IMG/VR virus record: IMGVR_UViG_3300009008_000024
Location: 16,802-80,801 of that record
DNA from: a virus
DNA length: 64,000 nucleotides
Strand: one strand, 5' to 3'
In this document: positions 2,433-57,061 of the stretch, in pieces
Position numbering within the stretch: the stretch's first letter is position 1
Layout of the letters: the number at the start of each line of letters is the position of its first letter
Notes under the pieces: generated by a model
The model's database searches: none
What the model was told of the DNA's origin: nothing
What the model saw: the letters and a program-made list of their open reading frames with translations, nothing else
Made by a program: the position numbers and the translations under genes

Positions 2433-5300
2433 ATGTCAGTTAATAAATTTAAGTTTGTGTCCCCTGGAGTATTCGTCTCGGAGATAGACAATTCACAATT
2501 GCCCGCGCTCCCCAGAGGGGTGGGACCAGTAATTATAGGGAGATCCATCAAGGGTCCTTCCATGCGTCCGGTTCAAATAGACTCCTTTTCTGAATTTGTT
2601 GAGACTTTCGGAGACCCTATTTATGGCGGCGGGGCATCAGACGTATGGCGTGTGGGACCGAATGTTTCAGCGCCATCTTATGCCACTTATGCAGCACAAG
2701 CTTATTTGAGAAACCAGAGTCCTCTAGTTTTCGTGAGATTGGCAGGCATCCAGGATTCAGAAGCTTCGACCAAGGCAGGCAAAGCAGGTTGGGAAGTATC
2801 CGGATTCAATCAAACCGCAGCAACTATGGCAGCAGGTCTCGGAGGCGGCGCATTTGGGTTGTTTCTGGGGAATAGTGGATCAACTGGGCATTTTACTGGC
2901 ACTCTTGCTGCAATCTTCTACGCTAGAACTGGTTCAGTCAGTCTAACAGGATCACTCCTAGATGGCACGACCGCCGAAGGAACGTGCGGGTTGTTTACAT
3001 CTTCCGTAAAAGACCAATTTACCGCAGTCGTCAAGGACGGCGACGGCGTTGTGTCCGACAAAGTAGTTTTTAATTTTGATGAAAATAGCAAACTGTTTAT
3101 TAGAAATGTTTTCAACACTAACCCGGCGCTCTGCAACAATGATACAAAGGTCAACGTAGCAGGTACCTCGAAGACATACTTTCTTGGGGAATCTTTCGAG
3201 AGGAGCGTGACGGATCTTTCTGGCGCCACTTCTGACGGGATCGGAGGGCAGGCAATCATATTGGGACTCCAATCTGGCAGTGTGGATCAGCATATCCAAC
3301 ATACGCAACTTCAAGATTCTTTTACGGGATGGTTTTTCTCTCAGGACTTGGGGGATTCATCTGCATATGATGCCCTGAATATGCCAAAACTTTTTAGGTT
3401 TGTTGGTCTAGGTGGCGGAGAGTGGCAGCAGAATAATTTGAAGATTTCTATTACCAGCATCACTCCGTCAAACAACGTTGCCAATCCCTTTGGTTATTTT
3501 ACCGTGGAGGTACGACAACTTGGAGATAGTGACAATAACAGAAAGCCAGTAGAAACTTTTAGTGACGTGAACTTGAATCCAAATTCGCCCAATTATATTG
3601 CGCGCCGAATAGGAGATTCATATACAGAGTGGGACGATGGAGATAAGAGATATCTCAGTTATGGGGATTATGTTAATCAGTCTCGATATATTCGGGTTGA
3701 AGTGGACTCGTCTGTGCGTGATGCTACCATGGATTCTAAACTTTTGCCATTTGGAGTATATGGTCCAACTAGGTGGAAGGGATTTACTGCTATTTCAGGC
3801 GGCGCTGGACCAGGAACGTTATCATCCACGGACGGCGTTGATTCGGGTGTGGCATACGTGATAGGAAATGACGAAGTGCCAGATAGTTTGTCTACCGCTG
3901 GAACATTTATGAACGTTGGCGCTAGCGATGTGACTGCATCGTTTGAGTTCCCAAGTGTTCCTACTAGGTTGCTTAGTAACGAAGGCATTATCACAAATCA
4001 AAAAGAAGCTTTCTTTGGCGCAACTGCCAACAAGAAATCTAGCAATCGAATTGAACCTAGCGTGAGAGACATGCTTCGAAGGAAGCCTCTAAATACAGGC
4101 GTCTTTTCAACCATTCCAGATTCACTAGAATATGCTTGGGTATTTTCTCTCGATGACTTGACAACTGGATCGACCTCTAATGGTGCAAATGCTGCATGGG
4201 TACCTGGTTCGCGCAGGACAGGTGATTCTTTCACCGCCTCTGGTTCATATCAGAGTGTGTTGACTACCTATGGATTCAACAGTTTCACCACTGTCATGAG
4301 TGAGGGGTTTGAGGGTATAAATATTCTGGAGAAAGAACCTTTCCGAAACTCCGCCATGAACGGCGTTGATGTGATTAGTAGTTACGAATATGCAACTCTA
4401 GACCGCGCCATTGATGCGGTAGCAGATGCTGATGTGGTGGAATGCAATATGATGAGCATTCCGGGTCTAACGAATACGAACCTTACGAGCAAATTGCTTG
4501 ATGTGTGCGAAGCACGCGCCGATTCACTGGCGGTCATCGATTTGCCGGGTGAGTATACTCCACCAGGCGAGGATGCATCAGAGAGCGCTACAGGGCGCCT
4601 AGGCAGTGTGCAAGATACGATTGATCAACTGGAGCAAAGGAACTTGAATAACAGTTATGGGTGCACTTACTACCCATGGGTTCAGGTGACGGACACTGTT
4701 ACAACGGGAGGATCCTTATGGGTACCCCCAAGTGTTGTGGCGCTTGGTACCTTGGCGAGCAGTCAGGCATCGAGCGAATTGTGGTTCGCCCCTGCCGGGT
4801 TTACTCGCGGAGGATTGACTGAAGGAAGTGCAGGTCTTCCGGTTACTAATGTTCGCGCCAGACTCAACTCTCAAGAGAGGGACGATTTGTATAACGCAAA
4901 CATCAATCCGATTGCACAATTCCCAGCGGAAGGTATAGTGATTTTTGGGCAAAAGACCCTTCAAGTTACGCGCTCTGCTCTGGATAGAATAAATGTGCGT
5001 CGTTTGATGATTTATGTGAAGCGTGAAATTTCTAGAATTTCTGCTACACTGTTGTTCGAGCAGAATGTCAATGCTACGTGGAATAGGTTCTTGGGTCAGG
5101 TCAATCCTTTCCTAGGAAGCATCCAGACGAGATTGGGGTTGACTGACTATAAGGTGGTGCTAGACCAGACCACCACAACGCCGGATCTCGTTGATAGGAA
5201 CATCTTATATGCTAAGATTTTCTTGAAACCTGCACGTGCAATTGAATTTATTGCCCTTGACTTTGTTATTACTAAGACGGGCGCAGGATTTGAGGACTAA
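2433..5300 (+). CDS. Contractile tail sheath protein (gp18-like)
   Basis: 955 residues. The N-terminus (FVSPGVFVSEIDNS, then IGRSIKGPSMRPVQI) and the C-terminus (LLFEQNVNATWNRF, and a final strand of VITKTGAGFED) are classical T4-type sheath features. T4 gp18 has 659 residues, so about 300 extra residues lie in the middle, probably an outer-surface insertion around residues 130-560 rich in Gly, Ser and Asp. The start is fixed by AAGGAGAG eight bases upstream. Sheath subunits polymerise around the tube and contract at infection. Confidence 0.95.
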   Translation: MSVNKFKFVSPGVFVSEIDNSQLPALPRGVGPVIIGRSIKGPSMRPVQIDSFSEFVETFGDPIYGGGASDVWRVGPNVSAPSYATYAAQAYLRNQSPLVFVRLAGIQDSEASTKAGKAGWEVSGFNQTAATMAAGLGGGAFGLFLGNSGSTGHFTGTLAAIFYARTGSVSLTGSLLDGTTAEGTCGLFTSSVKDQFTAVVKDGDGVVSDKVVFNFDENSKLFIRNVFNTNPALCNNDTKVNVAGTSKTYFLGESFERSVTDLSGATSDGIGGQAIILGLQSGSVDQHIQHTQLQDSFTGWFFSQDLGDSSAYDALNMPKLFRFVGLGGGEWQQNNLKISITSITPSNNVANPFGYFTVEVRQLGDSDNNRKPVETFSDVNLNPNSPNYIARRIGDSYTEWDDGDKRYLSYGDYVNQSRYIRVEVDSSVRDATMDSKLLPFGVYGPTRWKGFTAISGGAGPGTLSSTDGVDSGVAYVIGNDEVPDSLSTAGTFMNVGASDVTASFEFPSVPTRLLSNEGIITNQKEAFFGATANKKSSNRIEPSVRDMLRRKPLNTGVFSTIPDSLEYAWVFSLDDLTTGSTSNGANAAWVPGSRRTGDSFTASGSYQSVLTTYGFNSFTTVMSEGFEGINILEKEPFRNSAMNGVDVISSYEYATLDRAIDAVADADVVECNMMSIPGLTNTNLTSKLLDVCEARADSLAVIDLPGEYTPPGEDASESATGRLGSVQDTIDQLEQRNLNNSYGCTYYPWVQVTDTVTTGGSLWVPPSVVALGTLASSQASSELWFAPAGFTRGGLTEGSAGLPVTNVRARLNSQERDDLYNANINPIAQFPAEGIVIFGQKTLQVTRSALDRINVRRLMIYVKREISRISATLLFEQNVNATWNRFLGQVNPFLGSIQTRLGLTDYKVVLDQTTTTPDLVDRNILYAKIFLKPARAIEFIALDFVITKTGAGFED

Positions 5301-5308
5301 AAAATAAA

Positions 5309-5330
5309 AGTATTTACTAATTATAGTATA
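5309..5330 (+). promoter_or_regulatory. Candidate late promoter motif
   Basis: AAGTATTTACTAATTATAGTATAAC lies in the 59-base gap between sheath and tube genes. It contains both a TATTTA element like the other late-motif sites and an AT-rich TATAGTATAA segment. A separate promoter would allow more tube than sheath transcript. Confidence 0.3.
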
Positions 5331-5359
5331 ACGCTGGAGCAAAGAGGAGAAATTAAAGC

Positions 5360-5908
5360 ATGCCATTTTGGAAAGACGCACAGGTAGCAGATCCCAAGAG
5401 ATCATTTAGATGGGTACTCCAATTGGGAGTCGCCGGATTGTCGGAGAATATTTCTTATATTTGTAAGAAGGTTAGTAAACCTCAGATGAATATTGCCGAA
5501 GCAGAGCATAAGTTTCTTAATCATACGTTCTACTATCCTGGCAGCGTGACTTATGAAAAGATCACAGTTGACTTGGTTGACCCAGCGAATCCTCATTCTA
5601 CCGAACAATTGTTCAAACTAATACAGGACTCTGGTTATCAGTTGCCTTCAACTATTACGGATTCTGTGGGCGCCGATACTACTATGGCGAGCACAAACAG
5701 CAAGAGGCTTAGTACTAGTGCCATGAATAACGCTGTCATTGTCATGTTAGATGGCGATGGCAATACCATCGAGCGCACTATACTTAAAAATCCATGGATT
5801 TCCATGGTCAATTTTGGTGGTGACTTGGATTACGAGACTGAAGATCTGATGACTATCAGTCTGGAAATTAGGTTTGATTGGTTTGAATTAGAAACATTCA
5901 ATCCCTAA
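5360..5908 (+). CDS. Tail tube protein (gp19-like)
   Basis: 182 residues (T4 gp19: 163). It directly follows the sheath gene. Features of the tube family: a basic start with FRWVLQLG, an ICKKVSKP strand, the YYPGSVTYEKITV beta segment, and a C-terminus of alternating strands ending EIRFDWFELE. The protein forms stacked hexameric rings inside the sheath through which DNA passes. Ribosome site GAGGAG lies 12 bases before the ATG. Confidence 0.95.
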   Translation: MPFWKDAQVADPKRSFRWVLQLGVAGLSENISYICKKVSKPQMNIAEAEHKFLNHTFYYPGSVTYEKITVDLVDPANPHSTEQLFKLIQDSGYQLPSTITDSVGADTTMASTNSKRLSTSAMNNAVIVMLDGDGNTIERTILKNPWISMVNFGGDLDYETEDLMTISLEIRFDWFELETFNP

Positions 5909-20313: not shown

Positions 20314-20342
20314 TTGACAGAGTGATCTGCCTGTGCTATAAT
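20314..20342 (+). promoter_or_regulatory. Sigma-70-type promoter for the ssDNA-binding gene
   Basis: Perfect TTGACA (20314-20319), 17-base spacer, perfect TATAAT (20337-20342), followed by a run of seven G and the ribosome site AAGGAG. The strongest consensus promoter in the window, placed before the replication operon. Confidence 0.9.
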
Positions 20343-24913: not shown

Positions 24914-26770
24914 ATGGAATTATCTAGCAAGATCTTAAGTGATGTGACAGTGTTTATGAAGTATGCACGTTTTAGGGAAGACTTGGGCAGGAGAGAGACG
25001 TGGGAAGAGTTGGTGACTAGGAACATGGAGATGCACATCAGGACTTATCCCGACTTGCAAGAAGAAATTAGAGAATCTTATAGGTTTGTGTATGAAAAGA
25101 AGGTACTTCCATCAATGAGGTCACTTCAGTTCAGTGGGCGCCCAATTGAAATATCTCCAAATAGAATTTATAATTGTGCGTATCTTCCGGTAGACGATTG
25201 GCGCGCCTTTAGTGAAATTCTGTTCCTTCTCTTGGGCGGAACGGGAGTGGGATACAGTGTGCAGCAGCACCACGTAGAAGTTCTTCCTGAGATCAGGAAG
25301 CCGAATATGTCTCGGACTCGTCGATATTTGATTGGAGATAGTATTGAGGGTTGGGCGGATGCAGTAAAGATCTTGATGAAGTCTTATTTTTTCGGCACTT
25401 CCAATATTAGTTTTGATTTTAGTGACATTCGCGCGAAAGGATCTAGGTTGGTAACCAGTGGTGGCAAAGCGCCTGGACCTGAACCCCTCAAGATTTGCCT
25501 ACAACAAATAGAGAGTATCTTGAGCGAGAAAGAAGATGGTACCCAACTAAGACCAATAGAGGTGCATGATATTGTTTGTCATATAGCAGACGCCGTTCTT
25601 GCTGGCGGTATCCGTCGAGCCGCCCTTATTTCGTTGTTTTCTGCCGACGATGAAGAGATGATATCTTCGAAGTATGGTAATTGGCATGAGAGAAACCCCC
25701 AGCGCGGACGCTCTAATAACAGTGCAGTCTTGCTGCGACACAAGGCAGATAGAGAATTTTTCAATGGACTTTGGGAGAAAATTAAACTAAGCAATAGTGG
25801 TGAACCAGGCATTTACTTCTCCAACGATAAGGACTATGGCACTAACCCATGTTGCGAAATTGCGTTGCGACCTTTTCAGTTTTGTAATCTATGCGAGGTT
25901 AATGCCTCTAATGTAGAAGATCAGGAGGATTTTGATGAGCGGATCCGCGCCGCCGCTTTTATCGGCACCCTCCAGGCAGGTTATACTAATTTCCACTATT
26001 TGAGACCTGTTTGGCAACGCACTACTGAAAAGGAAGCGCTTATAGGAGTTAGTCTTACGGGAATTGCCTCAAGGAGATTGGAGCATATTGACCTAAAGGG
26101 AGGAGCGACCGTCGCGAAAAAGGTAAATCGAGAAACTGCCGAGAAGATTGGTATAAATCCCGCAGCGCGAATAACGACTATTAAGCCTGCTGGTACAACC
26201 TCTTTGGCACTAGGTTGTAGTTCTGGTATTCATGCTTGGCATAATGATTATTATGTGCGCCGCATTAGAGTCGGCAAGAACGAATCTATCTACCCCTACC
26301 TTTTGGAGAACCACCCGGAATTGATAGAGGATGAGTTTTTTAGACCTCACGACACAGCAGTCATTTCGGTACCGCAAAAGGCGCCCGCCGGCGCTGTCCT
26401 AAGACATGAGTCTGCATTTTCTCTCTTGGAGAGGGTAAAGGGTTTTTATGAGAGGTGGATCAAGCCGGGTCATGCCCGCGGACAAAATACTCACAATATT
26501 TCCGCGACCATTTCTTTGAGAGAAGAAGAGTGGGATGAGGTCGGTGATTGGATGTGGGAGAATCGGGCATGCTATAACGGATTATCGGTCCTTCCTTACG
26601 ATGGCGGATCGTATATGCAATCTCCATTTGAGGATTGTGATTTGGAAACGTATGAAAAGATGATGGAATCGCTAAAGTCAGTGGATTTGACGCAGATTAG
26701 CGAGGAAGAGGACAACACAGATCTCAAGGGAGAGGTGGCATGTGCCGGAGGCGCGTGTGAAATAAGATGA
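24914..26770 (+). CDS. Class II (adenosylcobalamin) ribonucleotide reductase
   Basis: 618 residues. Signature segments of monomeric B12-dependent ribonucleoside-triphosphate reductase: RIYNCAYLP with the first redox Cys, LLLGGTGVGYSVQQHH, NPCCEIALRPFQFCNLCEVN around the thiyl and second redox Cys, KPAGTTSLALGCSSGIHAWH, and the C-terminal CAGGACEIR shuttle cysteines. It converts ribonucleotides to deoxyribonucleotides without oxygen dependence but needs cobalamin from the host. Shorter than the about 739 residues of the Lactobacillus enzyme. Expressed with the helicase. Confidence 0.92.
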   Translation: MELSSKILSDVTVFMKYARFREDLGRRETWEELVTRNMEMHIRTYPDLQEEIRESYRFVYEKKVLPSMRSLQFSGRPIEISPNRIYNCAYLPVDDWRAFSEILFLLLGGTGVGYSVQQHHVEVLPEIRKPNMSRTRRYLIGDSIEGWADAVKILMKSYFFGTSNISFDFSDIRAKGSRLVTSGGKAPGPEPLKICLQQIESILSEKEDGTQLRPIEVHDIVCHIADAVLAGGIRRAALISLFSADDEEMISSKYGNWHERNPQRGRSNNSAVLLRHKADREFFNGLWEKIKLSNSGEPGIYFSNDKDYGTNPCCEIALRPFQFCNLCEVNASNVEDQEDFDERIRAAAFIGTLQAGYTNFHYLRPVWQRTTEKEALIGVSLTGIASRRLEHIDLKGGATVAKKVNRETAEKIGINPAARITTIKPAGTTSLALGCSSGIHAWHNDYYVRRIRVGKNESIYPYLLENHPELIEDEFFRPHDTAVISVPQKAPAGAVLRHESAFSLLERVKGFYERWIKPGHARGQNTHNISATISLREEEWDEVGDWMWENRACYNGLSVLPYDGGSYMQSPFEDCDLETYEKMMESLKSVDLTQISEEEDNTDLKGEVACAGGACEIR

Positions 26771-33900: not shown

Positions 33901-34404
33901 GCGATGAACAACTTAATTGATGAAAGGTTCGTAGGACTTAAGCATTTCTGGACGGCAGTTGTTTCGGAAAGACCCCGAAAAGAAAAGAATCTAATTGAAA
34001 ACATTTCAAAATTCTCAGATGTAGGAAATTTTTCTCCTGAAGAAAAGTTAGAATATTTGATTGATCTGACTGGACTGTTTCCATTCGATTTGGTTATGTC
34101 ATCTGAAATCAAACAAAGACTGGAAGATAAGTATGTTCCTCCGATTAGCGAGTACGATCCAGATTTGGGAGTGGTGTGGTTTATCCCGAGGAAGGTGATT
34201 CCGAAGAAAACGAAGTTCGGGAAAGATTGGTGGCTCGTAGAGGTGATAGACGAGAACAGCACAGTCACTGCGATCAAGTGTTGGGGCGTGAGGAGCACAG
34301 ATGTTATACATCTCAACCGCCCGTATATGGCAAAGTTAGAGTGTGATCCAGTATGGGGGTTTAGCACTAGAAGTATACGGCACACTTTTAGGTTGTTGGG
34401 GTAG
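30973..34404 (+). CDS. DNA polymerase III alpha subunit (DnaE type)
   Basis: 1143 residues, TTG start with a weak ribosome site; no better start fits the PHP domain. PHP domain begins at once: LHAHSVASVFDG with His14 and His16 and LTDHGNMNGL, an intact metal-binding pattern that could support proofreading. Polymerase core: GPARGSAAGSLVSYVLGITQIDP, LLFERFM, and PDIDYDVSD with the catalytic Asp pair; CSRHAGGIVVGD; YRPGPLS; and SGYGFNKSHALSYSILSFQ. An OB-like region closes the protein. This is likely the main replicase. A DnaE instead of the family-B gp43 is unusual for a T4-like virion. Confidence 0.95.
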   Translation: MERKESKIPFVGLHAHSVASVFDGLGYPAEHMDFAYQNGMDALALTDHGNMNGLAYQVMHAKKMSEEGKDFKPIFGLEAYFIPSIDEWRRDYDRIKEERANSKGRGKSIDGDVSGVTVEVEEDTKSVTKNILNRRRHMVLLAQNQKGLHNLFQLVSKSYRDENHYRFPRMDAALLKEHNEGIIASSACLGGVYAGDFWENREEGSDSVLRAMRDTTETMLDIFGDRWYAEVQWNRIKEQHQLNKYVIQVAEEFGIKLVSTADSHYPNPSLWKQREVYKQIGWKGIKNESKLPDSLEEMPYQLYPKNGDEMWDSYKKYSEACGFEYDDNVVRDSITETYHIAHERISRFLPSNEVRLPSFVVPDDKTAAATLVDCATEGLQQAGFGKDAVYVERLNEELEVINANDFAQYFLTMKAISDIAISKQLVGPARGSAAGSLVSYVLGITQIDPIEHDLLFERFMTRNQKDVGFPDIDYDVSDPMELKEDLIEEWGEDKVVPISNWNTLQLKSLIKDISKMNNIPFQEVNVVTMRMMQEATPAAKAAKGMAAGLYIPDFEEVKKYSASLGDFFRKYPEIESHVDALYGQIRSCSRHAGGIVVGDDLDKCMPLINSGGVRQTPWSEGQNVRHLEPMGFIKFDILGLASLRMMESAIRHVLKRHYGNKDPSFADVRDFYDEKLHPKVIDLTDQKVYKNIFHKGKWAGIFQFTEGGAQRFCQQAKPTNIVDLSAITSIYRPGPLSAKVDQHYVEAKKNPESIQYAHPIVREVTQETYGFLIFQEQIAMLAHRLGQDLSLDEGNLLRKILTKKGAGKAKIKAKIHRKFIEGCCTKHGIDPSTAQNLWDKFEYFSGYGFNKSHALSYSILSFQCAWLMTYYPVEWTAAFLDKEPETRKEKAINIAQSMGFGIKRLDVNTSGFSWEIDEAGETLIQPLTSVKGLGAAAIKEIIDYRPFATVEEFLFHDRMSYSKVNKKSLDALVRSQAMNNLIDERFVGLKHFWTAVVSERPRKEKNLIENISKFSDVGNFSPEEKLEYLIDLTGLFPFDLVMSSEIKQRLEDKYVPPISEYDPDLGVVWFIPRKVIPKKTKFGKDWWLVEVIDENSTVTAIKCWGVRSTDVIHLNRPYMAKLECDPVWGFSTRSIRHTFRLLG

Positions 34405-34405
34405 T

Positions 34406-35158
34406 ATGTATTTGAATATGGATTGTCTGGATTTCCTTGGGCGGGTAGAGAGTGATTCTGTCGATCTAGTCCTCACTGATCCTCCATACTTTGAGATAAT
34501 AAAGGATGGGTGGGATAACCAGTGGGAGAGTGAAGGGGAATATCTTGAATGGTGTGAGAGATGGACATCTGAATGTGTCCGCGTTTTGAAACCGGGAAGG
34601 TGCCTTTATGTGTGGGGGACTACGAAGACTGATACTTTTTTGAAGTACAAATTGAATGTTCTCAATTCTCAAGAGGAATTGCATTATCAGAATTGGATTG
34701 TTTGGTCCTATGATTGGGGGGGAAGAACCAGAAAAACTTTCCCAAGAAAGCACGAAGATTTGTTGATGTATTCAAAGGGAAAAGAATTTTTGTTTAATGC
34801 AGACGATGTGCGCATACCCTATAAGATGGCAAAGAACATAAGGGGAAACGCTCAGAATAATCCGCTCGGCAAACTTCCAACTGATGTGTGGCATAAAAAT
34901 AACCACACTATGTCGATAGAGTATGCCGGTTGGCACCCCACCCAAAAACCACTAGAACTCTTAGAGAGGGTCATTAGGGCACACACCAACCCCGGCGACG
35001 TTGTGTTGGATATTTTTGGCGGATCTGGTTCGACTATGATAGCGTGCGAATTGGCAGGCAGAAGGTTTGTTGGGTGTGAACTAGACATAGGATACTATGA
35101 GAAATCTAAGGAGAGGATGGAAAAGATTGTTCCTCTTCTCAAAAAAAGGAGTAAGTAA
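34406..35158 (+). CDS. DNA adenine/cytosine-N4 methyltransferase
   Basis: 250 residues from the ATG at 34406, one base after the DnaE stop. Motif IV VDLVLTDPPYFE near residue 20 and motif I VVLDIFGGSGSTMIACELAGRRFVG near 205 appear in the order IV then I (beta-group, N6_N4_Mtase family). The HPTQKPLELLERVI block before motif I is typical. DPPY favours adenine-N6 methylation. Target sequence unknown. Probably protects phage DNA from host restriction. Confidence 0.9.
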   Translation: MYLNMDCLDFLGRVESDSVDLVLTDPPYFEIIKDGWDNQWESEGEYLEWCERWTSECVRVLKPGRCLYVWGTTKTDTFLKYKLNVLNSQEELHYQNWIVWSYDWGGRTRKTFPRKHEDLLMYSKGKEFLFNADDVRIPYKMAKNIRGNAQNNPLGKLPTDVWHKNNHTMSIEYAGWHPTQKPLELLERVIRAHTNPGDVVLDIFGGSGSTMIACELAGRRFVGCELDIGYYEKSKERMEKIVPLLKKRSK

Positions 35159-40383: not shown

Positions 40384-40602
40384 ATGTTTTTCTTTTTTCG
40401 CGCAATTGTTTACGAGGTGTACTACGGGATTCTCCTGCTCCCACTCCTATGTGCGCATAAGTACTACTGGAAGAAGGTATTACACTTCAAGGACAAGAGG
40501 AAAATAAGGAGATTAGCATATTATTTCTTAAAATCTCAAAAATATGAAAGGAAGATAGAGATGAATAAAATCGATAAATATCGGAGGATCAATGGCGACT
40601 AA
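40384..40602 (+). CDS. Small membrane protein before GroEL, doubtful
   Basis: 72 residues with a hydrophobic N-terminal half (IVYEVYYGILLLPLLCAH) and a basic C-terminal half. Its end overlaps the GroEL start by 11 bases and contains the GroEL ribosome site. No good ribosome site stands before its own ATG; another short frame begins at 40367. Could be an untranslated leader. Confidence 0.4.
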   Translation: MFFFFRAIVYEVYYGILLLPLLCAHKYYWKKVLHFKDKRKIRRLAYYFLKSQKYERKIEMNKIDKYRRINGD

Positions 40603-42187
40603 GCACTATCTCAGCACAAAAGATGGTTTAAACCAGAAAATTTTAGAGGGGGTTAATAAGTTAGCAGACAATGTTGCTGCTACGATGGGACCGAAAGGGA
40701 GAAATGTTATACTTCATGCGCCCGGACACAACCCCATGATTACCAAGGATGGAGTAACTGTTGCCAAATTTGTGGATTTTGAAGATCCCTTTGAAAACGT
40801 TGGCGCCCAAATAATTAAACAAGCAAGCGAGGAGACCAACAGCAATGCTGGGGATGGAACTACGACCGCGACAGTTCTTGCCCGGGCAATTTTAGTAGAG
40901 GCACAGAAGCATTTGGTAGCAGGTCTTTCGCCCGTTGAACTCAAGAGGGGCATTGATAAGGCAACTGAAATTATGGTCGAGAACCTGAGAAGCGATGCGC
41001 GCAAGGTAACAAGACTGGAAGACATAGAAGACATTGCCACAATTTCTGCCAATGGCGATAGGACAATAGGGAAACTTCTTTCTACTGCGATTGACATGAT
41101 AGGTAACGACGGCAGCATAACCATCGAAGAGGCAAGATCCCTAGACACTTCTCTGGATGTCATGGAAGGATTCAGGTTTGATAGTGGGTATACTGCAACT
41201 GCCTTCGTCAATGATGAGAGGAGGGGTCTGATGCGATATGATAACCCCCTCTATTTGGTGACAGATGAGAAGATTGAGTTTGTTGAAGATATCCTTCCCG
41301 TTCTAGAACTGGCGGCGCGAGACGGTAGACCACTCATAGTGGTGTGCGAAGAGGTGGAGGGTCAGGCGCTAGCTGCCATGATCATGAATGCAGTCCGCGG
41401 CACCATGAAGGTTGCAGCGATAAAGGCGCCCAACTATGGCGAAGAGCGCAGGAATATTTTAGAGGATCTTTGCGTGAGTGTGGGTGCAACTTTTGTTTCC
41501 CGCAGTTCAGGCATGCAGTTGAAAGATGTGAAGTTGCAGCACCTAGGAAGTTCCAAGACAATTGAATGCGAGAAGTTTTCTACCACCATAGTAGGTGGGA
41601 AGGGGGAAGAGGATAAGGTGCAAGAGAAGATCGATGCGCTTAAGAGTCTTTTCGAGAAAACAAGTGGCATGCATGAGTGCGAAAGGATACAAGAGAGAAT
41701 AACGAGATTGGCGAGCGGAATTGCTGTCATTAGTGTTGGTGGCGCCACAGAAATAGAGATGACTGAGAAAAAGCACCGTGTCGAAGACGCACTTGAGGCG
41801 GTAAAGTCGGCACAAAAAGAGGGTATCGTGGTAGGCGGCGGAATGGCACTCCTAAGCGTTGCTTCTCGATTGAACCTGGCAGATTTTTGTGAGGAAGGCA
41901 CAGAAGAATCATGCGGCGCTAGCATTGTCTTGAGAGCGGTTGCGGCACCTCTGCGCCAAATGGTAGAAAACGCAGGGGGCAAGCCAGATGTTATATTGAA
42001 CGCAGCAAGAGAGTTAGATGCTGGTCGCGGATTTGATTTGCGTAAGGATTTTGGAGAATGCGAGGCAGTGGATATGTTCGAAGAGGGGATCATAGATCCA
42101 CTAAAGGTGGTAAGATCTGCACTTCAGAACGCTGCATCGGCAGCAGGAACTCTTTTGACTAGCAGTCATGCGATTATATCCAAATAG
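40592..42187 (+). CDS. groEL: GroEL-type chaperonin
   Basis: 531 residues. Near the N-terminus NVAATMGPKGRNVIL and ITKDGVTVAKFVDFEDPFENVGAQIIKQ; the ATP site NAGDGTTTATVLARAI at about residues 84-99; GYTATAFVNDE; and IVVGGGMALL near residue 410. Lacks the Gly-Gly-Met tail. Phages usually encode at most a GroES substitute; a full chaperonin beside a GroES-like gene allows host-independent folding, perhaps of the unusually large sheath or capsid proteins. GGAGGA precedes the ATG. Confidence 0.97.
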   Translation: MATKHYLSTKDGLNQKILEGVNKLADNVAATMGPKGRNVILHAPGHNPMITKDGVTVAKFVDFEDPFENVGAQIIKQASEETNSNAGDGTTTATVLARAILVEAQKHLVAGLSPVELKRGIDKATEIMVENLRSDARKVTRLEDIEDIATISANGDRTIGKLLSTAIDMIGNDGSITIEEARSLDTSLDVMEGFRFDSGYTATAFVNDERRGLMRYDNPLYLVTDEKIEFVEDILPVLELAARDGRPLIVVCEEVEGQALAAMIMNAVRGTMKVAAIKAPNYGEERRNILEDLCVSVGATFVSRSSGMQLKDVKLQHLGSSKTIECEKFSTTIVGGKGEEDKVQEKIDALKSLFEKTSGMHECERIQERITRLASGIAVISVGGATEIEMTEKKHRVEDALEAVKSAQKEGIVVGGGMALLSVASRLNLADFCEEGTEESCGASIVLRAVAAPLRQMVENAGGKPDVILNAARELDAGRGFDLRKDFGECEAVDMFEEGIIDPLKVVRSALQNAASAAGTLLTSSHAIISK

Positions 42188-45040: not shown

Positions 45041-46987
45041 ATGGCGAGACACACCTATTTAGCACTTTTATTTTTATTTTTGTTGCATGGGTGTTCGTGC
45101 GATGAGAATCTAACATATGTGTGTCCGCCTCCCCAACCTTGCGTAAATCTTTCTGATGGCGGAATAGAAGTGTTGGACGAGAGTTTCATCTCTCGCACGA
45201 AGGGTGAATGCCGATTAGGATACACTGACTGCGATGAGGAAAACAAAGACATCTGCATTGGTCAAATAAACCCAACAGAAGAGACATGTGACGGTTTGGA
45301 TAATGATTGCGACGGCATAGCAGATAATGGGTTGTTTATAGATGAAGACAATGATTCATTCAACGATCCAGATTCTTGCTTGGGACCAAAAACAGATTGC
45401 GATGATGACGACCCAGCAGCATTTCCAGGCAATGAAGAAGTGTGTGACGGCGTGGATAATGATTGTGATGGCGAAATAGACAACATAGGACCATTCGAAT
45501 GTTGGACTGGTGGAGAGAGCGCAGTATTTAATGAGAATTCTCCATGTAGGACAGGTGTTGTAGAGTGTGTTGATGGTGCATGGTCAGGGTGTTTGGGGCA
45601 AGTTTTCCCAGTGCCAGAACAGTGTGATTTAATAGACAATGATTGCAATGGAGAAGTTGATGATTCTCCATGGGGAGAGGGAGAACCATGTGGACCGCAA
45701 AGCACCATAGGGCAGTGCTCATATGGTTATGGGGTGTGCGTCTCGGGCGAGATGTATTGTATCGATGCCGTCTATCCGCAGAATGAAGCATGTGATGCTG
45801 TTGATAATGATTGCAATGGGTTTGTTGATGAAAATTTAGAAAGACTTTGCGAAACTGAATGTGGGTATGGCGTAGAAGAGTGCTCTGGTGGCATTTGGGA
45901 TAATTGTAGTGCTCCTGCGCCGCAGGATGAGATATGCGACATGATCGACAACGACTGCGACGGAGAGGTGGATGAGGGATGTTTGTGCATTGTAGGCGAT
46001 TCTAGGACGTGCCAGGAGGAGAATATGTATGATCCTGTAAGCGGAGAGCATAGGAATTGTGGTATCGGGGTAGAATATTGTGATATTTTTGGAATGTGGG
46101 GAGACTGCTACTGGACAGGCATTCAGGCCGAAGTTTGTAATAACTGGGACGATGACTGTGACGACATAATAGATATGATGCAGTCATCTTGTGGAAATCA
46201 GGATAGTTCTACGGTGGGAGTTGGCGAATGTAAACTTGGCACCACCACATGCATAGAGGGTGAGTGGGGAATATGCGAAGGTGAAATATCTCCCATGGAA
46301 GAAGTGTGTGATCAACTGGACAATGACTGCGATGGAGAGATTGATGAAGATCTGAACTCTCATGAGAAAGTTGATATGGTATTTGCTATTGATATATCTG
46401 GTTCCATGTGCAATTATGTAGACGCACTGGCGCAGGGAATAATGGCATATATTGCCGACTTCGAAGATACGGAACATAGGTTTGGGTTGGTTGTGTTCCC
46501 CCCTCCCAACTATTCACCAGTAGGGGAATATCAACCCAGGTATCAAGTAATGACAATTCCTCCTCTTGTTGACGTGACATCTTTCTTATTTGAATTGGCA
46601 AATCTAGATTGTAATGGCGGAGGATCAGAACCAAGTTATGATACGATGTATGATCTGGTGCGCCCCGACGACCCAGCTGGCATAGGGTGGAGAGACGATG
46701 CCTATCCCTACATAATAATGATTACAGACGAACCGGCACAGTCTTGGGACAACCTAGGAGAATCCAATATTGCTCCCCACACCAATAATTGTGCAATAGG
46801 CGAATGTGTTGCCGGCGATAAGATAGAAGTGTTTGTTATTTCAAAACCAGGATATCTGTGGAGTTGGGACGATGTTATTTATGGAGACTTCGACAGATAT
46901 TTTGCTATAGATCCAGCAGAAGGAAGTAGGTATACTATAATGCTGCAAGAAATTTTTACAAACGTGTGTTTGCCAGAAGGAGAGTAG
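45041..46987 (+). CDS. Large MopE-repeat / VWA lipoprotein
   Basis: 648 residues. Signal peptide LALLFLFLLHGC with lipobox Cys18. Residues about 80-445 hold seven copies of the CDxxDNDCDGxxDE motif (putative metal-binding, as in MopE and many deltaproteobacterial surface proteins), separated by Cys-rich GxCxxG...C..G.W..C modules. From about residue 447 comes a von Willebrand A domain with VFAIDISGSM, an intact MIDAS DxSxS, and YIIMITDEP. No C-terminal anchor. It would sit lipidated at the cell surface or periplasm. Highly unusual for a phage and probably of bacterial origin. Preceded by a weak ribosome site. Confidence 0.9.
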   Translation: MARHTYLALLFLFLLHGCSCDENLTYVCPPPQPCVNLSDGGIEVLDESFISRTKGECRLGYTDCDEENKDICIGQINPTEETCDGLDNDCDGIADNGLFIDEDNDSFNDPDSCLGPKTDCDDDDPAAFPGNEEVCDGVDNDCDGEIDNIGPFECWTGGESAVFNENSPCRTGVVECVDGAWSGCLGQVFPVPEQCDLIDNDCNGEVDDSPWGEGEPCGPQSTIGQCSYGYGVCVSGEMYCIDAVYPQNEACDAVDNDCNGFVDENLERLCETECGYGVEECSGGIWDNCSAPAPQDEICDMIDNDCDGEVDEGCLCIVGDSRTCQEENMYDPVSGEHRNCGIGVEYCDIFGMWGDCYWTGIQAEVCNNWDDDCDDIIDMMQSSCGNQDSSTVGVGECKLGTTTCIEGEWGICEGEISPMEEVCDQLDNDCDGEIDEDLNSHEKVDMVFAIDISGSMCNYVDALAQGIMAYIADFEDTEHRFGLVVFPPPNYSPVGEYQPRYQVMTIPPLVDVTSFLFELANLDCNGGGSEPSYDTMYDLVRPDDPAGIGWRDDAYPYIIMITDEPAQSWDNLGESNIAPHTNNCAIGECVAGDKIEVFVISKPGYLWSWDDVIYGDFDRYFAIDPAEGSRYTIMLQEIFTNVCLPEGE

Positions 46988-49519: not shown

Positions 49520-49548
49520 TTGACTTTTGTGACTAAATGTGCTATAAT
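49520..49548 (+). promoter_or_regulatory. Sigma-70-type promoter
   Basis: TTGACT (49520-49525), 17 bases, perfect TATAAT (49543-49548), before the unit that runs to the MoxR/VWA cassette. Confidence 0.85.
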
Positions 49549-49599: not shown

Positions 49600-50265
49600 A
49601 TGATGACAACGATAGGCATACGTCTTGAGCAATTGCTTGAAAAGGTGACTGCGGCAGGAGATTCTTACAAGGTAAAACTGACAAAATCATTTATGGATCA
49701 ATATTGCAATGGTCACACTCTTTCGGCGCGCCAGGTGCAATTGTTGGAGGAGTGGGAGCGCCAATATGATGACAATAAAATGGCGCTTTTGGCAAAATGG
49801 AAAGAAGAATACTTGGCATCTGATAGCATGCAGGCGCTAATGAAACTCGCGATCAGATATTATAAAGGGATGAACTACTTCCAGGCGGTGCAAAATGAAT
49901 TCACCAATTGGCATGCCGATCCTTCCAACGAAGGAAAGATGTGGATTCCCACCCAAAGCACCTTCATGAAGATGACGCAAAATCCTTATTTTGAACGCTA
50001 CAGGGAGGAGGTGTCATCTAGTCCCAAATTTTCTGCTGGCGATTGGGTGACCGGTCGAGCATCAACGCGCAATTCGGGCGTCCTTCTTATGATTGTCAAG
50101 CAGACCGAAAAGGTACAAGCATTTAAGGGGGGCAAACAATATTTGGCACTAAGGATTGCCCAACCTTCATTCAGCAAGACCTGGAAGACTTCCAACGGAA
50201 TTACATGTCGTGTTGACGAGCGTGATATTAAAAAATTCAAGGTAAAGAAAGGAAAGCGAGCATGA
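49600..50265 (+). CDS. Unknown two-domain protein
   Basis: 221 residues. Helical residues 1-120 (LSARQVQLLEEWERQYD is an interaction-like helix), then a beta domain FSAGDWVTGRAS, GVLLMIVKQ, and LALRIAQPS. The sequence ends in a basic KKFKVKKGKRA. GAGAGGGGAAGG gives a good ribosome site. First gene of the unit that ends with the AAA+ cassette. It may bind nucleic acid. Confidence 0.65.
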   Translation: MMTTIGIRLEQLLEKVTAAGDSYKVKLTKSFMDQYCNGHTLSARQVQLLEEWERQYDDNKMALLAKWKEEYLASDSMQALMKLAIRYYKGMNYFQAVQNEFTNWHADPSNEGKMWIPTQSTFMKMTQNPYFERYREEVSSSPKFSAGDWVTGRASTRNSGVLLMIVKQTEKVQAFKGGKQYLALRIAQPSFSKTWKTSNGITCRVDERDIKKFKVKKGKRA

Positions 50266-50981
50266 GCAGGTGGGGTAGAGCAAAAGTAACGTGTAGTTAC
50301 TGTTATGGTACCGGACACAATAAGAGGGGTTGCGAAACTTACAAGAGGGATGCACAAGAAGGTCGCGTTCCAAAATTCAGACAAATAAAAAAGCGCAGGT
50401 GCTCCTATTGTGGCACAGCCGATCATGACCGTCGCAGTTGTGAATCGTTACATGATGACAAAATAAGTACAATATTGGCGAACAGGGAGTGGATCAGGTT
50501 GGTAGTGGGAGATTTGGAGAAAAGCGGAGTGGGCATTGGCACACTCATTAAATACAGTCCGCGCGGCGTCGGTAGGGGATGGATATTGGGAATGGTTACT
50601 GGGTTTAGGTGGAAAAACTTGTCCATCAACTACCCGACCAAAGCATGGATCCAGATCCGGAATTTTGGCGGCAATACTCCTGAAAATCTAATGCCACCTG
50701 GGTATTCCCCACGTGAGGTGGGATATATTTCTTTGAGAGACATACATCGCCCCGTCCTTGCTGATCGTCAAGGAACACCAGTCGCCGCGCGGGTATTGAA
50801 ACCCAACATTAAATTAGAGGGAAGCATTGCCGAGAGTGAGGTCTTCAAGATTGTATCTCCAGTTTGTTCTAATTTGACAAACCAGGCACCACAGAATATC
50901 TTGGCAGGCGGAGATGGAATAGGAGAGTTTTATGAGGGCAAGAGGAGTAAGGACTATTATGTGAACTTCGAAAAAGACTAG
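50262..50981 (+). CDS. Double zinc-knuckle (CCHC) protein
   Basis: 239 residues, ATGA overlap. Two exact CX2CX4HX4C knuckles: CSYCYGTGHNKRGC near residue 11 and CSYCGTADHDRRSC near 47, the retroviral Gag type that binds single-stranded nucleic acid. The rest is a beta domain with GIGTLIKYSPRG, GWILGMVTGF and WIQIRNF. It probably acts on RNA or ssDNA; such knuckles are rare in phages. Co-transcribed with the MoxR cassette. Confidence 0.75.
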   Translation: MSRWGRAKVTCSYCYGTGHNKRGCETYKRDAQEGRVPKFRQIKKRRCSYCGTADHDRRSCESLHDDKISTILANREWIRLVVGDLEKSGVGIGTLIKYSPRGVGRGWILGMVTGFRWKNLSINYPTKAWIQIRNFGGNTPENLMPPGYSPREVGYISLRDIHRPVLADRQGTPVAARVLKPNIKLEGSIAESEVFKIVSPVCSNLTNQAPQNILAGGDGIGEFYEGKRSKDYYVNFEKD

Positions 50982-51049
50982 ACGCATACAGAGAACGCTT
51001 ACATTTTAACACAAATTTTTACCAAAAGACACACAAGAAGGAAAAAAAG

Positions 51050-52159
51050 ATGGCATCAATTGATTTCAAGACACTCTCTTCGGTCGCTTCGATTGTACTG
51101 GACGCACGTCTTCCCATTATTTTGCGGGGGCGCCATGGCATTGGGAAGTCTGAGATTGTATATCAACTAGAAAAGACACTGAAATATACAAATGGGGTTA
51201 TCGAGCGCAGAGCGTCTCAAATGACAGAGGGAGACTTGATGGGGTTGCCGTCAATCGAGGGCAACTCTACTAGGTGGAATCCGCCAGACTGGTTCAAGTA
51301 TGGGTGCGATAATCCAGTTCTCATCTTTCTCGATGAGGTTGATCGTGCCCCGCAAGAGGTGCGACAAGGCATTTTTCAGTTGAACGATAGTCGCGAACTT
51401 AACGGGCATAAGTTGCACCCCGACACGGTGGTTGTTGCTGCCATTAACGGGGGAGAGCACGGTGCCGAATATCAGGTAGGGGAAATGGATCCTGCCGAAC
51501 TGGATCGTTACACGGTTTTTGATATTGAACCCACGGTTGAAGATTGGTTGTCATGGGCAAAGGGTACCGTAAGTGATATAGTGTGGGACTTCATAAACAA
51601 TCACCGGAATCACTTGGAGCACGAGGAATCCTACGAACCAAACAAGGTATATCCTAGTCGCAGAAGTTGGACAAGGTTGGACAAGGCACTACAATTGGCA
51701 TCCCTCCATGAAGGAGACATGAAAAGTCCGCTAATTTCCGTTCTTGCCCAGGCATTTGTTGGTTTCGAAGCAGCAGTTAAATTCAGAGATTTTGCTTCTA
51801 ACTGGGAAAGGCAGGTGTCTTTATCGGATATTCTTGAAGAGGGGAAATTCTCTCTTGTAGAGGATTTCACTATCAACGAGCATGGTGCCATGGTTGAGAA
51901 GATGGAGCAAGAGGACATTTTTAAATCTAAACTAACTGAAAATCAGCGCAACAACCTTGCCGAGTACATGTCTAGGATTCCTGGGGAATTAGCAATGAAG
52001 TTGTTTACTAGTTTTACTAATGAGATTGTAAATCTTCAGGATGAAGAGAAGATATCCGAGATTGTCAGTTTTATGGAGCACAAGTTGGATGAAAAGGGAA
52101 TCATGGTCAAGGAGTATTTGGTAGATTTGATTTCCGGAGAATATCAAGAGGAGGGATGA
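51050..52159 (+). CDS. MoxR-like AAA+ ATPase
   Basis: 369 residues. Walker A GRHGIGKSE with Lys33, then MTEGDLMGLPSIEG, Walker B VLIFLDEVDRAPQEV, GHKLHPDTVVVAAINGG (sensor 1) and EMDPAELDRYTVFDIEP (arginine finger), all typical of the MoxR/RavA family. The C-terminal 150 residues are helical. MoxR proteins act as chaperones with VWA partners; such a partner is encoded two genes downstream. AAGAAGGAAA precedes the ATG. Confidence 0.92.
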   Translation: MASIDFKTLSSVASIVLDARLPIILRGRHGIGKSEIVYQLEKTLKYTNGVIERRASQMTEGDLMGLPSIEGNSTRWNPPDWFKYGCDNPVLIFLDEVDRAPQEVRQGIFQLNDSRELNGHKLHPDTVVVAAINGGEHGAEYQVGEMDPAELDRYTVFDIEPTVEDWLSWAKGTVSDIVWDFINNHRNHLEHEESYEPNKVYPSRRSWTRLDKALQLASLHEGDMKSPLISVLAQAFVGFEAAVKFRDFASNWERQVSLSDILEEGKFSLVEDFTINEHGAMVEKMEQEDIFKSKLTENQRNNLAEYMSRIPGELAMKLFTSFTNEIVNLQDEEKISEIVSFMEHKLDEKGIMVKEYLVDLISGEYQEEG

Positions 52160-52162
52160 TAA

Positions 52163-52621
52163 GTGCCATATAAAAGCATACACACCAAGAACGTTAATGT
52201 TCTTCGGAAATGGGCAAAGAATAATCACTCCATCACCACAGTCCTCGACACGGGTCAGCAAGATAGATATTTGTTGAGTGAAAGAATTATTGTCATAAAC
52301 GACGGACAGTCTGATGAGAATAAGTGTTATTCGCTGCTGCATGAATTGGGGCACCTCATGAACCGTTCTAAGAGAGAGAAGCAGTTTTGTAAGAAATATG
52401 ATTTATTGCATAAGGCGGAGGCAACGGGAGAGACCCCCAGAACATACGCATACCGCATTCAAGTTATAGAGGAAGAGATAGGGGCATGGAGAAACGGGCA
52501 GGCATTGGCAGAAAGACTAAACCTTAAGATCGATTTTGATAGGTACAATAACTATGCTTCTAGGTGCGTGATGTCCTATGTGGACTGGGCGGCAGAAAGA
52601 GATTGGAAAGACCATGTTTGA
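52163..52621 (+). CDS. HExGH zincin-like protein (IrrE/ImmA-like), copy 1
   Basis: 152 residues, GTG start three bases after the AAA+ gene. LLHELGHLMN holds the metal motif from His60, and a later helix EEIGAWRNGQALAERL supplies the third ligand Glu; the tail RCVMSYVDWA is shared with the paralogue at 58900. Compact HExGH proteins of this type resemble the N-terminal domain of ImmA/IrrE. Overlaps the VWA gene, so the three genes form one cassette. Confidence 0.8.
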   Translation: MPYKSIHTKNVNVLRKWAKNNHSITTVLDTGQQDRYLLSERIIVINDGQSDENKCYSLLHELGHLMNRSKREKQFCKKYDLLHKAEATGETPRTYAYRIQVIEEEIGAWRNGQALAERLNLKIDFDRYNNYASRCVMSYVDWAAERDWKDHV

Positions 52622-53759
52622 TTTGAACTTTAGCATATACTCTCTTCTCCACGATGAACCATTTTTTGCGGCACTGTCTAGATCAGTAGACAAGCGCGCT
52701 AGCAATGCTATTCCTACGGCAGGGGTGTGCGTAGACGAAGACACGGGACACTTTATACTATATTATAACCCGGAGTATTTTCAAAAACTTTCACAGACCA
52801 AGAGAAAGGGAGTTTTGAAGCATGAGTTTTATCATCTGATCTTTGAGCACGTTACGTCTAGACTTCCGGCGCAAGGACTTACAGTGCTGTGGAATATCGC
52901 AACAGACTTAGCGATCAACTCCTATCTGCCAGACCAATTGCCAGAAGGTTGTTGTATGCCAGGGGAAGGGAAATTTGCAAAATTTCCCCTGCATAAGACA
53001 GCGGAATGGTATTTTGAACGTCTCCAGGAAGATGAAGATTTTCAAAATGATGGCAGCAATCCCGGAGAGGGTCAGTTTGATAATCATGGCGGGTGGGGAG
53101 AAGTTAGTAACCAGACCAAAGAGATAGCAAAGGAGCGGTTGAAGGGGATGGTGAAGTCTGCCTCAGAGGAATGCGCTAGCGGAAAGGGATGGGGCAGTGT
53201 AAGTACTTCGGTACGCCGGGATATTATTGATAGAATAACCTCTTCTCCTCTCGATTGGAAGAGGGTGTTGCGTTATTTTGTCAAAACATCTCAGCGCGCA
53301 GACAAGGTGTCTACAATCAAGAAGATCAATCGCAGGTATCCCTACGTGCATGCTGGGAGGAAGACATCTAGGCAAGCAAAGATTGCCATCAGCGTTGATC
53401 AATCTGGCAGCGTTTCGGATGGGATGCTCTCTGCTTTCTTCAGGGAGTTGGGCGAGTTGGCAAAGTTGGCAGAGTTTACAGTCATTCCTTTCGACGACCA
53501 GGTGTTTGAAGACAAGGTATTCGTGTGGAAGAGGGGAAAGTCTCACGCAAGGGAGAGGGTGTTGTGTGGCGGCACCAATTTTGATGCTCCTACCAAATAT
53601 GCAAACGATCATGGATTTGATGGGCACATTATTTTGACGGATATGTATGCTCCCAAGCCTATAGCAAGTAAGTGCCAGAGAATGTGGATGACGGATAGAA
53701 ATGGTGGATCAATGCCCTATTTTAAAACAAACGAGAAGATAATTGTTATTGACGCATGA
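52614..53759 (+). CDS. DUF2201-type zincin plus VWA protein
   Basis: 381 residues from the ATG at 52614 (8-base overlap). N-terminal putative metallopeptidase domain: KHEFYHLIFEHV with HEFYH at residues 70-74 and a TDLAINSY helix. A helical linker follows. The C-terminal VWA-like domain has AISVDQSGSVSDG with Asp262 (DxSxS MIDAS) and FDGHIILTDMYAP. This pairing is that of DUF2201 proteins encoded beside MoxR ATPases in bacteria. The AAA+ partner may remodel this protein or its metal site. Target unknown. Confidence 0.88.
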   Translation: MFDLNFSIYSLLHDEPFFAALSRSVDKRASNAIPTAGVCVDEDTGHFILYYNPEYFQKLSQTKRKGVLKHEFYHLIFEHVTSRLPAQGLTVLWNIATDLAINSYLPDQLPEGCCMPGEGKFAKFPLHKTAEWYFERLQEDEDFQNDGSNPGEGQFDNHGGWGEVSNQTKEIAKERLKGMVKSASEECASGKGWGSVSTSVRRDIIDRITSSPLDWKRVLRYFVKTSQRADKVSTIKKINRRYPYVHAGRKTSRQAKIAISVDQSGSVSDGMLSAFFRELGELAKLAEFTVIPFDDQVFEDKVFVWKRGKSHARERVLCGGTNFDAPTKYANDHGFDGHIILTDMYAPKPIASKCQRMWMTDRNGGSMPYFKTNEKIIVIDA

Positions 53760-56086: not shown

Positions 56087-57061
56087 GTGAAGGTCAAAAC
56101 ACCACTAAGATACCCGGGTGGAAAGAGCAGGGGTATGAAGGTACTAGATAAGTTTTTCCCAGAGAATATTAGCGAATATAGGGAACCGTTTGTAGGCGGC
56201 GGTTCTGTATTCTTATATGTACGACAAAAGTACGGACCAGGGGTGGAGTATTGGATCAATGATGGGTATCATAACTTGTATTGTTTCTGGGTTGCTTTGC
56301 GTGATGATAGCGAGCGATTAGTTGAAAAACTTATGGAGTTGAAGGTAGCGAATTCAGAACTCAACACCAAGAAGCAGATAGAAGAAATTATTGACTCTAA
56401 CCAACTTGGTAAGGAGCAAAAGAGAGAACTATACAAGAATCAAACATCTCGCGCAAGAGAACTGTTTTTGCATGCAAAAAGCAGCATTGAGGATAGCGAC
56501 GAGTTCATGAAGGGTGTGTACTTTTACATACTTAATAAATGTTCCTATTCGGGTCTCACCGAAAGTGGCACATTCTCCCCCCAAGCAAGCATTCAAAACT
56601 TTTCGGTTACTGGGATCCGAAAACTACGAGAAGTTTCTAAGTTGTTGCAGGGTGTAAAGATAACAAATTTGGATTACGCGGATGTGATGAATGGTGCGGG
56701 TAACGATACGTTCACCTTTCTTGATCCGCCCTACAAACTTCCCAAGAAGCAAAGCAACGCGCTGTATGGAAAGAATGGAGAACTCCACAAAAACTTTGAT
56801 CACCATAGGTTACATTATGTTGTGGGGAGTACTCGTGGCGCGAAGATGATAACCTACAATAACGAAGAGAGTTTGAGATACCTATATCAACACTGCCGGC
56901 AAGATGAATGGTCTTTGAAGTACGGAATGAGAATCGTTGAAAACCAGAGTGGTCTTCTGAAGGCAAAAGATTGCACAAACAACGAACTCCTTATAAGGAC
57001 TCACTGGCAGAACTTGCCGAATTTTACCACCAAAAGCAACAGGAGAGAAGATGACAAATAA
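56087..57061 (+). CDS. D12-class DNA adenine methylase
   Basis: 324 residues, GTG start served by ACGGAG. Motif I LRYPGGKSRG near residue 7, EPFVGGGSVFL near 40, NDGYHNLYCFW, and catalytic motif IV FLDPPYKLPKK near 210. This is the order of Dam/T4 Dam (D12, alpha class). Third methyltransferase of the window and a different class from the other two, suggesting several methylation targets. Overlaps the next gene by 11 bases. Confidence 0.93.
   Translation: MKVKTPLRYPGGKSRGMKVLDKFFPENISEYREPFVGGGSVFLYVRQKYGPGVEYWINDGYHNLYCFWVALRDDSERLVEKLMELKVANSELNTKKQIEEIIDSNQLGKEQKRELYKNQTSRARELFLHAKSSIEDSDEFMKGVYFYILNKCSYSGLTESGTFSPQASIQNFSVTGIRKLREVSKLLQGVKITNLDYADVMNGAGNDTFTFLDPPYKLPKKQSNALYGKNGELHKNFDHHRLHYVVGSTRGAKMITYNNEESLRYLYQHCRQDEWSLKYGMRIVENQSGLLKAKDCTNNELLIRTHWQNLPNFTTKSNRREDDK

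Follow-up and report, generated by a model that had tools for sequence, protein, structure and literature searches.

A phage operon encoding a variant of the known MoxR/DUF2201-VWA chaperone pair with new partner genes

Results

The analysis of a 64,000-nucleotide stretch of viral DNA (positions 16,802 to 80,801 of IMG/VR record IMGVR_UViG_3300009008_000024, hereafter the window) identified a new form of a chaperone pair already known from phages, accompanied here by new partner genes. The locus is best read as an operon of five genes (49600-53759) behind a promoter at 49520, encoding in order the basic proteins U2 and CCHC, a MoxR-type ATPase, an M78 zincin and a DUF2201-VWA protein (Table 1). 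The interpretation that we prefer, at a probability of roughly 0.5, is that the operon encodes an ATP-driven MoxR-VWA remodelling machine with an accessory M78 protease and basic adaptor or client proteins.

Table 1. Features of the five-gene operon (window coordinates)
Feature	Position	Strand	Basis or remark
Promoter-like site, TTGACT-N17-TATAAT with extended -10 TG	49520-49548	+	consensus match only
U2, 221-aa basic protein, pI 9.6	49600-50265	+	linkage to MoxR-VWA
CCHC, 239-aa basic protein, pI 9.6, two zinc knuckles	50262-50981	+	conserved Cys/His, Pfam of family
CCHC zinc knuckles, CX2CX4HX4C	50292-50333, 50400-50441	+	
MoxR-type AAA+ ATPase, 369 aa	51050-52159	+	Pfam AAA_5, phrog_1297, profile, N4 gp24 alignment; stop codon 52157-52159
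MoxR Walker A	51128-51151	+	
MoxR Walker B DE	51332-51337	+	
M78/IrrE-like minimal zincin, 152 aa	52163-52621	+	PF06114, profile, fold; GTG start 52163, stop codon 52619-52621
M78 HELGH	52340-52354	+	
M78 EE	52472-52477	+	
DUF2201_N metallopeptidase-VWA fusion, 381 aa	52614-53759	+	Pfam, phrog_1314, invariant residues; ATG at 52614
HEFYH	52821-52835	+	
His79	52848-52850	+	
Asp98	52905-52907	+	
MIDAS DxSxS	53397-53411	+	
MIDAS Thr321	53574-53576	+	
MIDAS Asp343	53640-53642	+	

The record is an 80.8-kb contig of an uncultured virus, and its source was called a phage because it carries sheath, tube, baseplate and replication genes. This marine phage is contractile-tailed, and its structural genes occupy 0-19 kb of the window, about 30 kb away from the MoxR cassette, which lies behind the replication genes. 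No close isolate was found, the DNA polymerase being at most about 31% identical to those of isolates among the matches listed. Other genes detected in the window encode a full-length GroEL chaperonin (40592-42187), an adenosylcobalamin-dependent (class II) ribonucleotide reductase (24914-26770), a pair of DNA methyltransferases of the adenine/cytosine type (one N6_N4_Mtase, one Dam-like; 34343-35158 and 56087-57061), and a 648-aa protein with six MopE-type copper-binding repeats (PF11617) and no PHROG match (45041-46987).

The original prediction, made from the letters of the DNA, had described a triplet of MoxR, HExGH and HEFYH-VWA genes at 51050-53759 with a 3-base gap and an 8-base overlap. 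The open reading frames lie exactly so; the M78 gene follows the MoxR gene after 3 nt, with AGGAGG just 5' of its start, and its end overlaps the DUF2201-VWA gene by 8 nt. The transcription unit begins 5' of this interval, with the promoter at 49520 and the U2 gene at 49600. The U2 and CCHC genes, overlapping each other in an ATGA, precede MoxR by a gap of 68 nt, and the scan of the window operon found no strong terminator-like sites between its genes. The promoter-like site, assigned by consensus match only, agreed with the sigma70 consensus at 11 of 12 positions, and the closest relative, L168, which has the identical triplet arrangement and matching genes on either side, has TTGACA-N17-TGcTATAAT, a match at all 12 positions, in the corresponding location. 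The plus strand of the window contains 14 sigma70 sites with at least 11 matches, compared with 0.4 in shuffled sequences, suggesting that the host RNA polymerase transcribes much of the phage. Near-perfect sites on this strand include those at 20314, 42510 and 62000. Production of the MoxR-VWA machine in early or mid infection is the best reading.

The MoxR protein matched AAA_5 in Pfam (9e-9) and the ATPase family phrog_1297 in PHROGs (8e-51), with the CobS-like phrog_249 at only 2e-9. Its family profile matched the solved structures of midasin (1e-27) and CobS (4e-7), as well as CbbQ/NorQ. Walker A and B, sensor 1, the Arg finger and sensor 2 were all found together with MoxR-like relatives, which places the protein among the MoxR AAA+ ATPases. 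The residues G30, G32, K33, S34, E96, N133, R153 and R205 were invariant in an alignment reaching out to phage N4, in which D95 was kept in at least 90%.

The DUF2201-VWA protein matched DUF2201_N (9e-16) and the DUF2201 VWA-like domain (2e-8) in Pfam, and phrog_1314 (1e-45). Both H70/E71/H74/H79/D98 of the zincin half and the MIDAS residues D262/S264/S266/T321/D343 were invariant in 18 VWA proteins including N4 gp25. The DUF2201_N half may either cleave or merely hold a metal. The predicted structure (pLDDT 84) had NorD of NorQD as its top PDB fold match, at a weak Foldseek E of 0.014. A conserved RRYP segment with an invariant R241 lies in a low-confidence stretch of the model immediately ahead of the MIDAS strand, and is a candidate VWA finger for the MoxR pore. 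A cobaltochelatase CobS/CobT reading was dropped, as Pfam found DUF2201 and no CobT domain in the VWA partner. The PHROG label of phrog_1314 is 'HNH endonuclease', and this is repeated in RefSeq (e.g., NC_023579.1 and NC_021772.1; loci L105 and L108). Pfam detected no HNH domain in the window protein and the phrog_1314 family aligns as zincin plus VWA; the label is probably a propagated misannotation. NCBIfam gave no usable match for the MoxR, M78 or VWA protein.

The two genes form a pair of the N4 gp24/gp25 kind, namely adjoining phrog_1297 and phrog_1314 genes, the second with HExxHxxxxH and a complete MIDAS. When each member was used as bait, the other was found in 73/75, 20/21 and 57/62 loci, and 373 and 207 isolate phage records gave matches to the pair. 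The core pair was thus already known, both from its identity with N4 gp24/gp25, listed as core genes of N4-like phages (PMC4193335; PMC7650795), and from jumbo phages of group 2.2, where a MoxR-metallopeptidase/vWA pair has been described as a chaperone and cochaperone proposed to act in virion assembly (Iyer et al. 2021, PMC7824862). The proposal that the phage encodes a MoxR and VWA module of the chaperone type was supported, although the original prediction had not connected the module with N4. Our literature search found no assigned function for gp24/gp25, and the CRISPRi-ART paper did not mention these N4 genes. In Vibrio phage 1.026.O (NC_049430.1; L104), the phrog_1297 ATPase had no DUF2201-VWA neighbour; a 659-aa phrog_1735 protein tagged COG4676 is encoded upstream and might stand in for the VWA partner.

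The M78 protein matched Peptidase_M78 (PF06114; 6e-7, above the cut-off), as did 25 of 39 family members, and HELGH and E104/E105 were invariant in the 39 homologues. With its motifs and those of its two neighbours intact and conserved, all three genes proved to encode what had been predicted. The additional zincin had also been thought to replace or regulate the metal-dependent step of the machine; replacement is not supported, since neither of the two zincins has lost its active site and the residues of each are invariant. The dN/dS values of M78 were 0.03-0.16 in the computable pairs, several pairs being saturated. In a profile search of the PDB the best solved relatives were IrrE/PprI, and the AlphaFold2 model (pLDDT 91.6) resembled IrrE, selecase-type minigluzincins and ArdC, with weak E values (0.03-0.06) at a probability of about 0.9-0.97. 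The protein thus has the HExxH with a downstream Glu, the M78 profile and, by a weak match, the IrrE-like fold that characterize the peptidase family. As a single 152-aa domain it has no HTH or GAF fusion, and the Pfam and PHROGs scan of adjacent genes revealed no HTH repressor partner. Judged from these sequence comparisons, the window zincin is a member of the M78 peptidase family outside the IrrE-DdrO regulatory system, and its family suggests protease activity.

Searching viral contigs with the single M78 protein returned nothing, and the use of family alignments did find members, 54 in distinct form. In 25 of these the M78 gene immediately follows MoxR on its 3' side; eight are tight triplets (including that of the window), two have a VWA gene at a distance of 2-4 kb downstream, and 15 lack a VWA gene in the examined stretch, although several of their contigs carry one elsewhere. 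A further 28 did not adjoin MoxR and one was at a contig edge; among the 28, a few loci possess the MoxR-VWA pair with M78 located roughly 5-9 kb downstream of it. On the M78 tree the MoxR-adjacent label required seven changes, at least four of them forced by well-supported branches, compared with 17.4 in shuffles; the count scored L153, which is really adjacent, as non-adjacent owing to an over-long ORF start. Among 91 distinct related loci, all on uncultured and often partial contigs, M78 occupied the gap between MoxR and VWA in eight, the gap in other phages holding other small genes or none. Conservation of the triplet in related phages, as originally expected, was therefore observed in a subset of relatives only, and for that subset the eight tight triplets pass the co-occurrence test that had been proposed; the occurrence and conservation of the triplet are not due to chance. 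Since M78 was present in the gap at 8 of 91 loci only and 28 of the 54 M78 genes were located away from MoxR, the partnership is not obligatory, and by these counts M78 is a recurrent but optional partner of MoxR-VWA. In freshwater phages M78 follows MoxR, the VWA gene is located elsewhere, and the zinc-knuckle gene was not detected. One locus (L122) has two differing M78 paralogues, at 3497-4051 and 4914-5411, 3' of a single MoxR gene. Small 'GDL' proteins of SH3-like appearance fill the MoxR-VWA gap, alone or beside M78, in L019, L022, L025, L082-L088 and others, and U2 as well as further small proteins near the locus show motifs resembling theirs.

Unbiased clustering of the genes around the 91 loci recovered U2 at 59 and CCHC at 53, the next real family reaching 23 and most other neighbours of the window six or fewer. 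A 'middle' cluster of 26 loci was set aside, as it seemed to be an artefact of reading the core genes out of frame. With CCHC as bait, MoxR was downstream in 57 of the 63 loci with room (within 300 nt in 36), and with U2 as bait 34 of the 38 loci with room had it no farther than about 6 kb away, figures that are inflated by the use of MoxR-linked copies as seeds for the bait alignments. The phages counted are related, so that conserved gene order can also mean common descent; the gene order itself varied, with U2 and CCHC before, between or after MoxR-VWA, which favours a functional link rather than shared order alone. U2 and CCHC, both overlooked in the original prediction, are more tightly linked to MoxR-VWA than the M78 gene is, and the reading of the triplet as a self-contained unit is not supported. 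The knuckle Cys/His residues were invariant in nine aligned CCHC members, and Pfam zinc-knuckle and zinc-finger matches were obtained in the family using a closer sequence set, the first alignment (A8) being too diverged. U2 had no match in Pfam, PHROG or PDB, nor did CCHC by tblastn against isolate phages. Both proteins are basic and probably nucleic-acid-binding.

Discussion

The window pair shares with NorQ/NorD, CbbQ/CbbO and RavA/ViaA a MoxR ATPase, predicted to form a ring, and a VWA partner. The NorQ/NorD mechanism has been solved by cryo-EM, the structures showing the VWA finger in the pore of the MoxR-family ring and a VWA rotation that stretches the partner (PMC13036017). NorD differs in lacking a zincin domain and in having a respiratory enzyme as its client. 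By analogy with NorQ acting on NorD, a MoxR hexamer would hold the DUF2201 protein by its VWA half and turn or tug the N-terminal zincin half and its cargo, so that the VWA half is twisted against the zincin half. The M78 accessory protease would work with the MoxR ring, cutting or conditioning clients that the ring has opened, and U2 and CCHC may be adaptors or themselves clients, probably directing the machine to nucleic-acid-bound protein. The observed parts of this model are the gene content, the intact active sites, the linkage and the conservation of the promoter; the MoxR hexamer and its docking onto the VWA partner are assumed from the families, where the present data provide genetic linkage only.

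As for the client, virion assembly is a tentative guess and a nucleoprotein a slightly more doubtful one, with the remaining probability falling to some other client. The nucleoprotein was suggested by the zinc-knuckle partner together with the ties of M78 relatives to ssDNA, PprI being activated by ssDNA (PMC10904395) and ArdC being reported to bind it (PMC7213743). In yeast Cdc48-Wss1, an AAA+ unfoldase acts with a small, ssDNA-activated zincin on chromatin-bound proteins (PMC4559962). It belongs to another AAA+ clade and uses another adaptor, and we propose a functional analogy, not homology. A counterpart in which MoxR and two zincins, tethered to phage DNA or RNA via CCHC and basic adaptors, strip or clip the proteins bound there during replication or transcription is a speculative and decidedly unlikely version.

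Among the alternatives, a chaperone-protease in which MoxR-VWA assembles and processes tail or other structural proteins is possible, if rather unlikely. It has been proposed for group 2.2 jumbo phages after p618/p892 of Acidianus two-tailed virus (PMC7824862), and the N4-like roseophage RPP1 encodes four virion proteins near its gp24/gp25 homologues, two of them with chaperone-like domains (PMC4193335); the window phage, contractile-tailed and possessing its own GroEL, would fit as well. However, the cassette is far from the structural genes, behind replication genes and under its own host-type promoter, N4 gp24/gp25 are middle genes, and the closest partners of the pair are not structural.

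Unlikely, too, is the explanation that M78 merely rides along as a passenger gene, the gap between MoxR and VWA being permissive and admitting various small unrelated genes that have no functional tie to the pair. The low frequency of M78 there, and the SH3-like 'GDL' proteins, zinc-knuckle genes or empty gaps found elsewhere, are consistent with it. Against it, M78 recurs beside MoxR in several separate branches and also in the freshwater phages, its spacing is overlapping or near zero, and it is under purifying selection.

We consider it still less probable that the machine serves host takeover, dismantling or degrading a defence, transcription or envelope complex of the host while M78, in the manner of IrrE/ImmA, cleaves a host regulator. 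Relatives of M78 do cleave repressors (PprI/DdrO; PMC10904395), the promoter is of an early type, and the patchy spread of M78 is expected for host-directed proteins. The core pair is, however, near-universal in N4-like phages and not patchy, and PADLOC gave no real match, the zincin being weakly capP-like (6e-4). The host defence or envelope targets originally suggested thus found no evidence here, the analysis pointing to no host target and to nearest partners that are basic and probably nucleic-acid-binding.

A metal-insertion chaperone that loads a phage or host enzyme as NorQD or CobST do, with the zincins and zinc knuckles as clients, is improbable: the NorD fold match, the adenosylcobalamin-dependent reductase, the CobST known in tailed viruses (PMC8651126) and the earlier term metalloprotein chaperonin for a phage MoxR pair (PMC2147016) are outweighed by a VWA protein without a CobT model match, a MoxR closer to phrog_1297 than to phrog_249 with a family profile far closer to midasin than to CobS, and the presence of the pair in N4, a B12 link not being seen in this analysis.

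The MoxR-VWA remodelling machine with accessory proteins, our preferred reading, extends the known pair. N4 gp24/gp25 of Schitoviridae likewise adjoin and have the same invariant residues, with about 22% identity to the window proteins, but N4 has no zincin gene inside the pair and no zinc-knuckle or U2 gene alongside. The group 2.2 jumbo phages have the same two-gene architecture, and the passage describing it (PMC7824862) mentions no separate M78 zincin, zinc-knuckle protein or U2. The window M78 shares the HExxH plus Glu and the fold and profile similarity with IrrE/PprI and ImmA, but is a minimal domain compared with PprI (about 290-300 aa; 8slm is described as HTH-fused). An M78 protease and two basic partner proteins beside the core pair appear to be undescribed. 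The gp24/gp25 pair is a core feature of N4-like phages and widespread beyond them; CCHC, U2 and, in some lineages, M78 are the first concrete adaptor or client candidates for it, and these new partner genes make the function of the pair open to testing.
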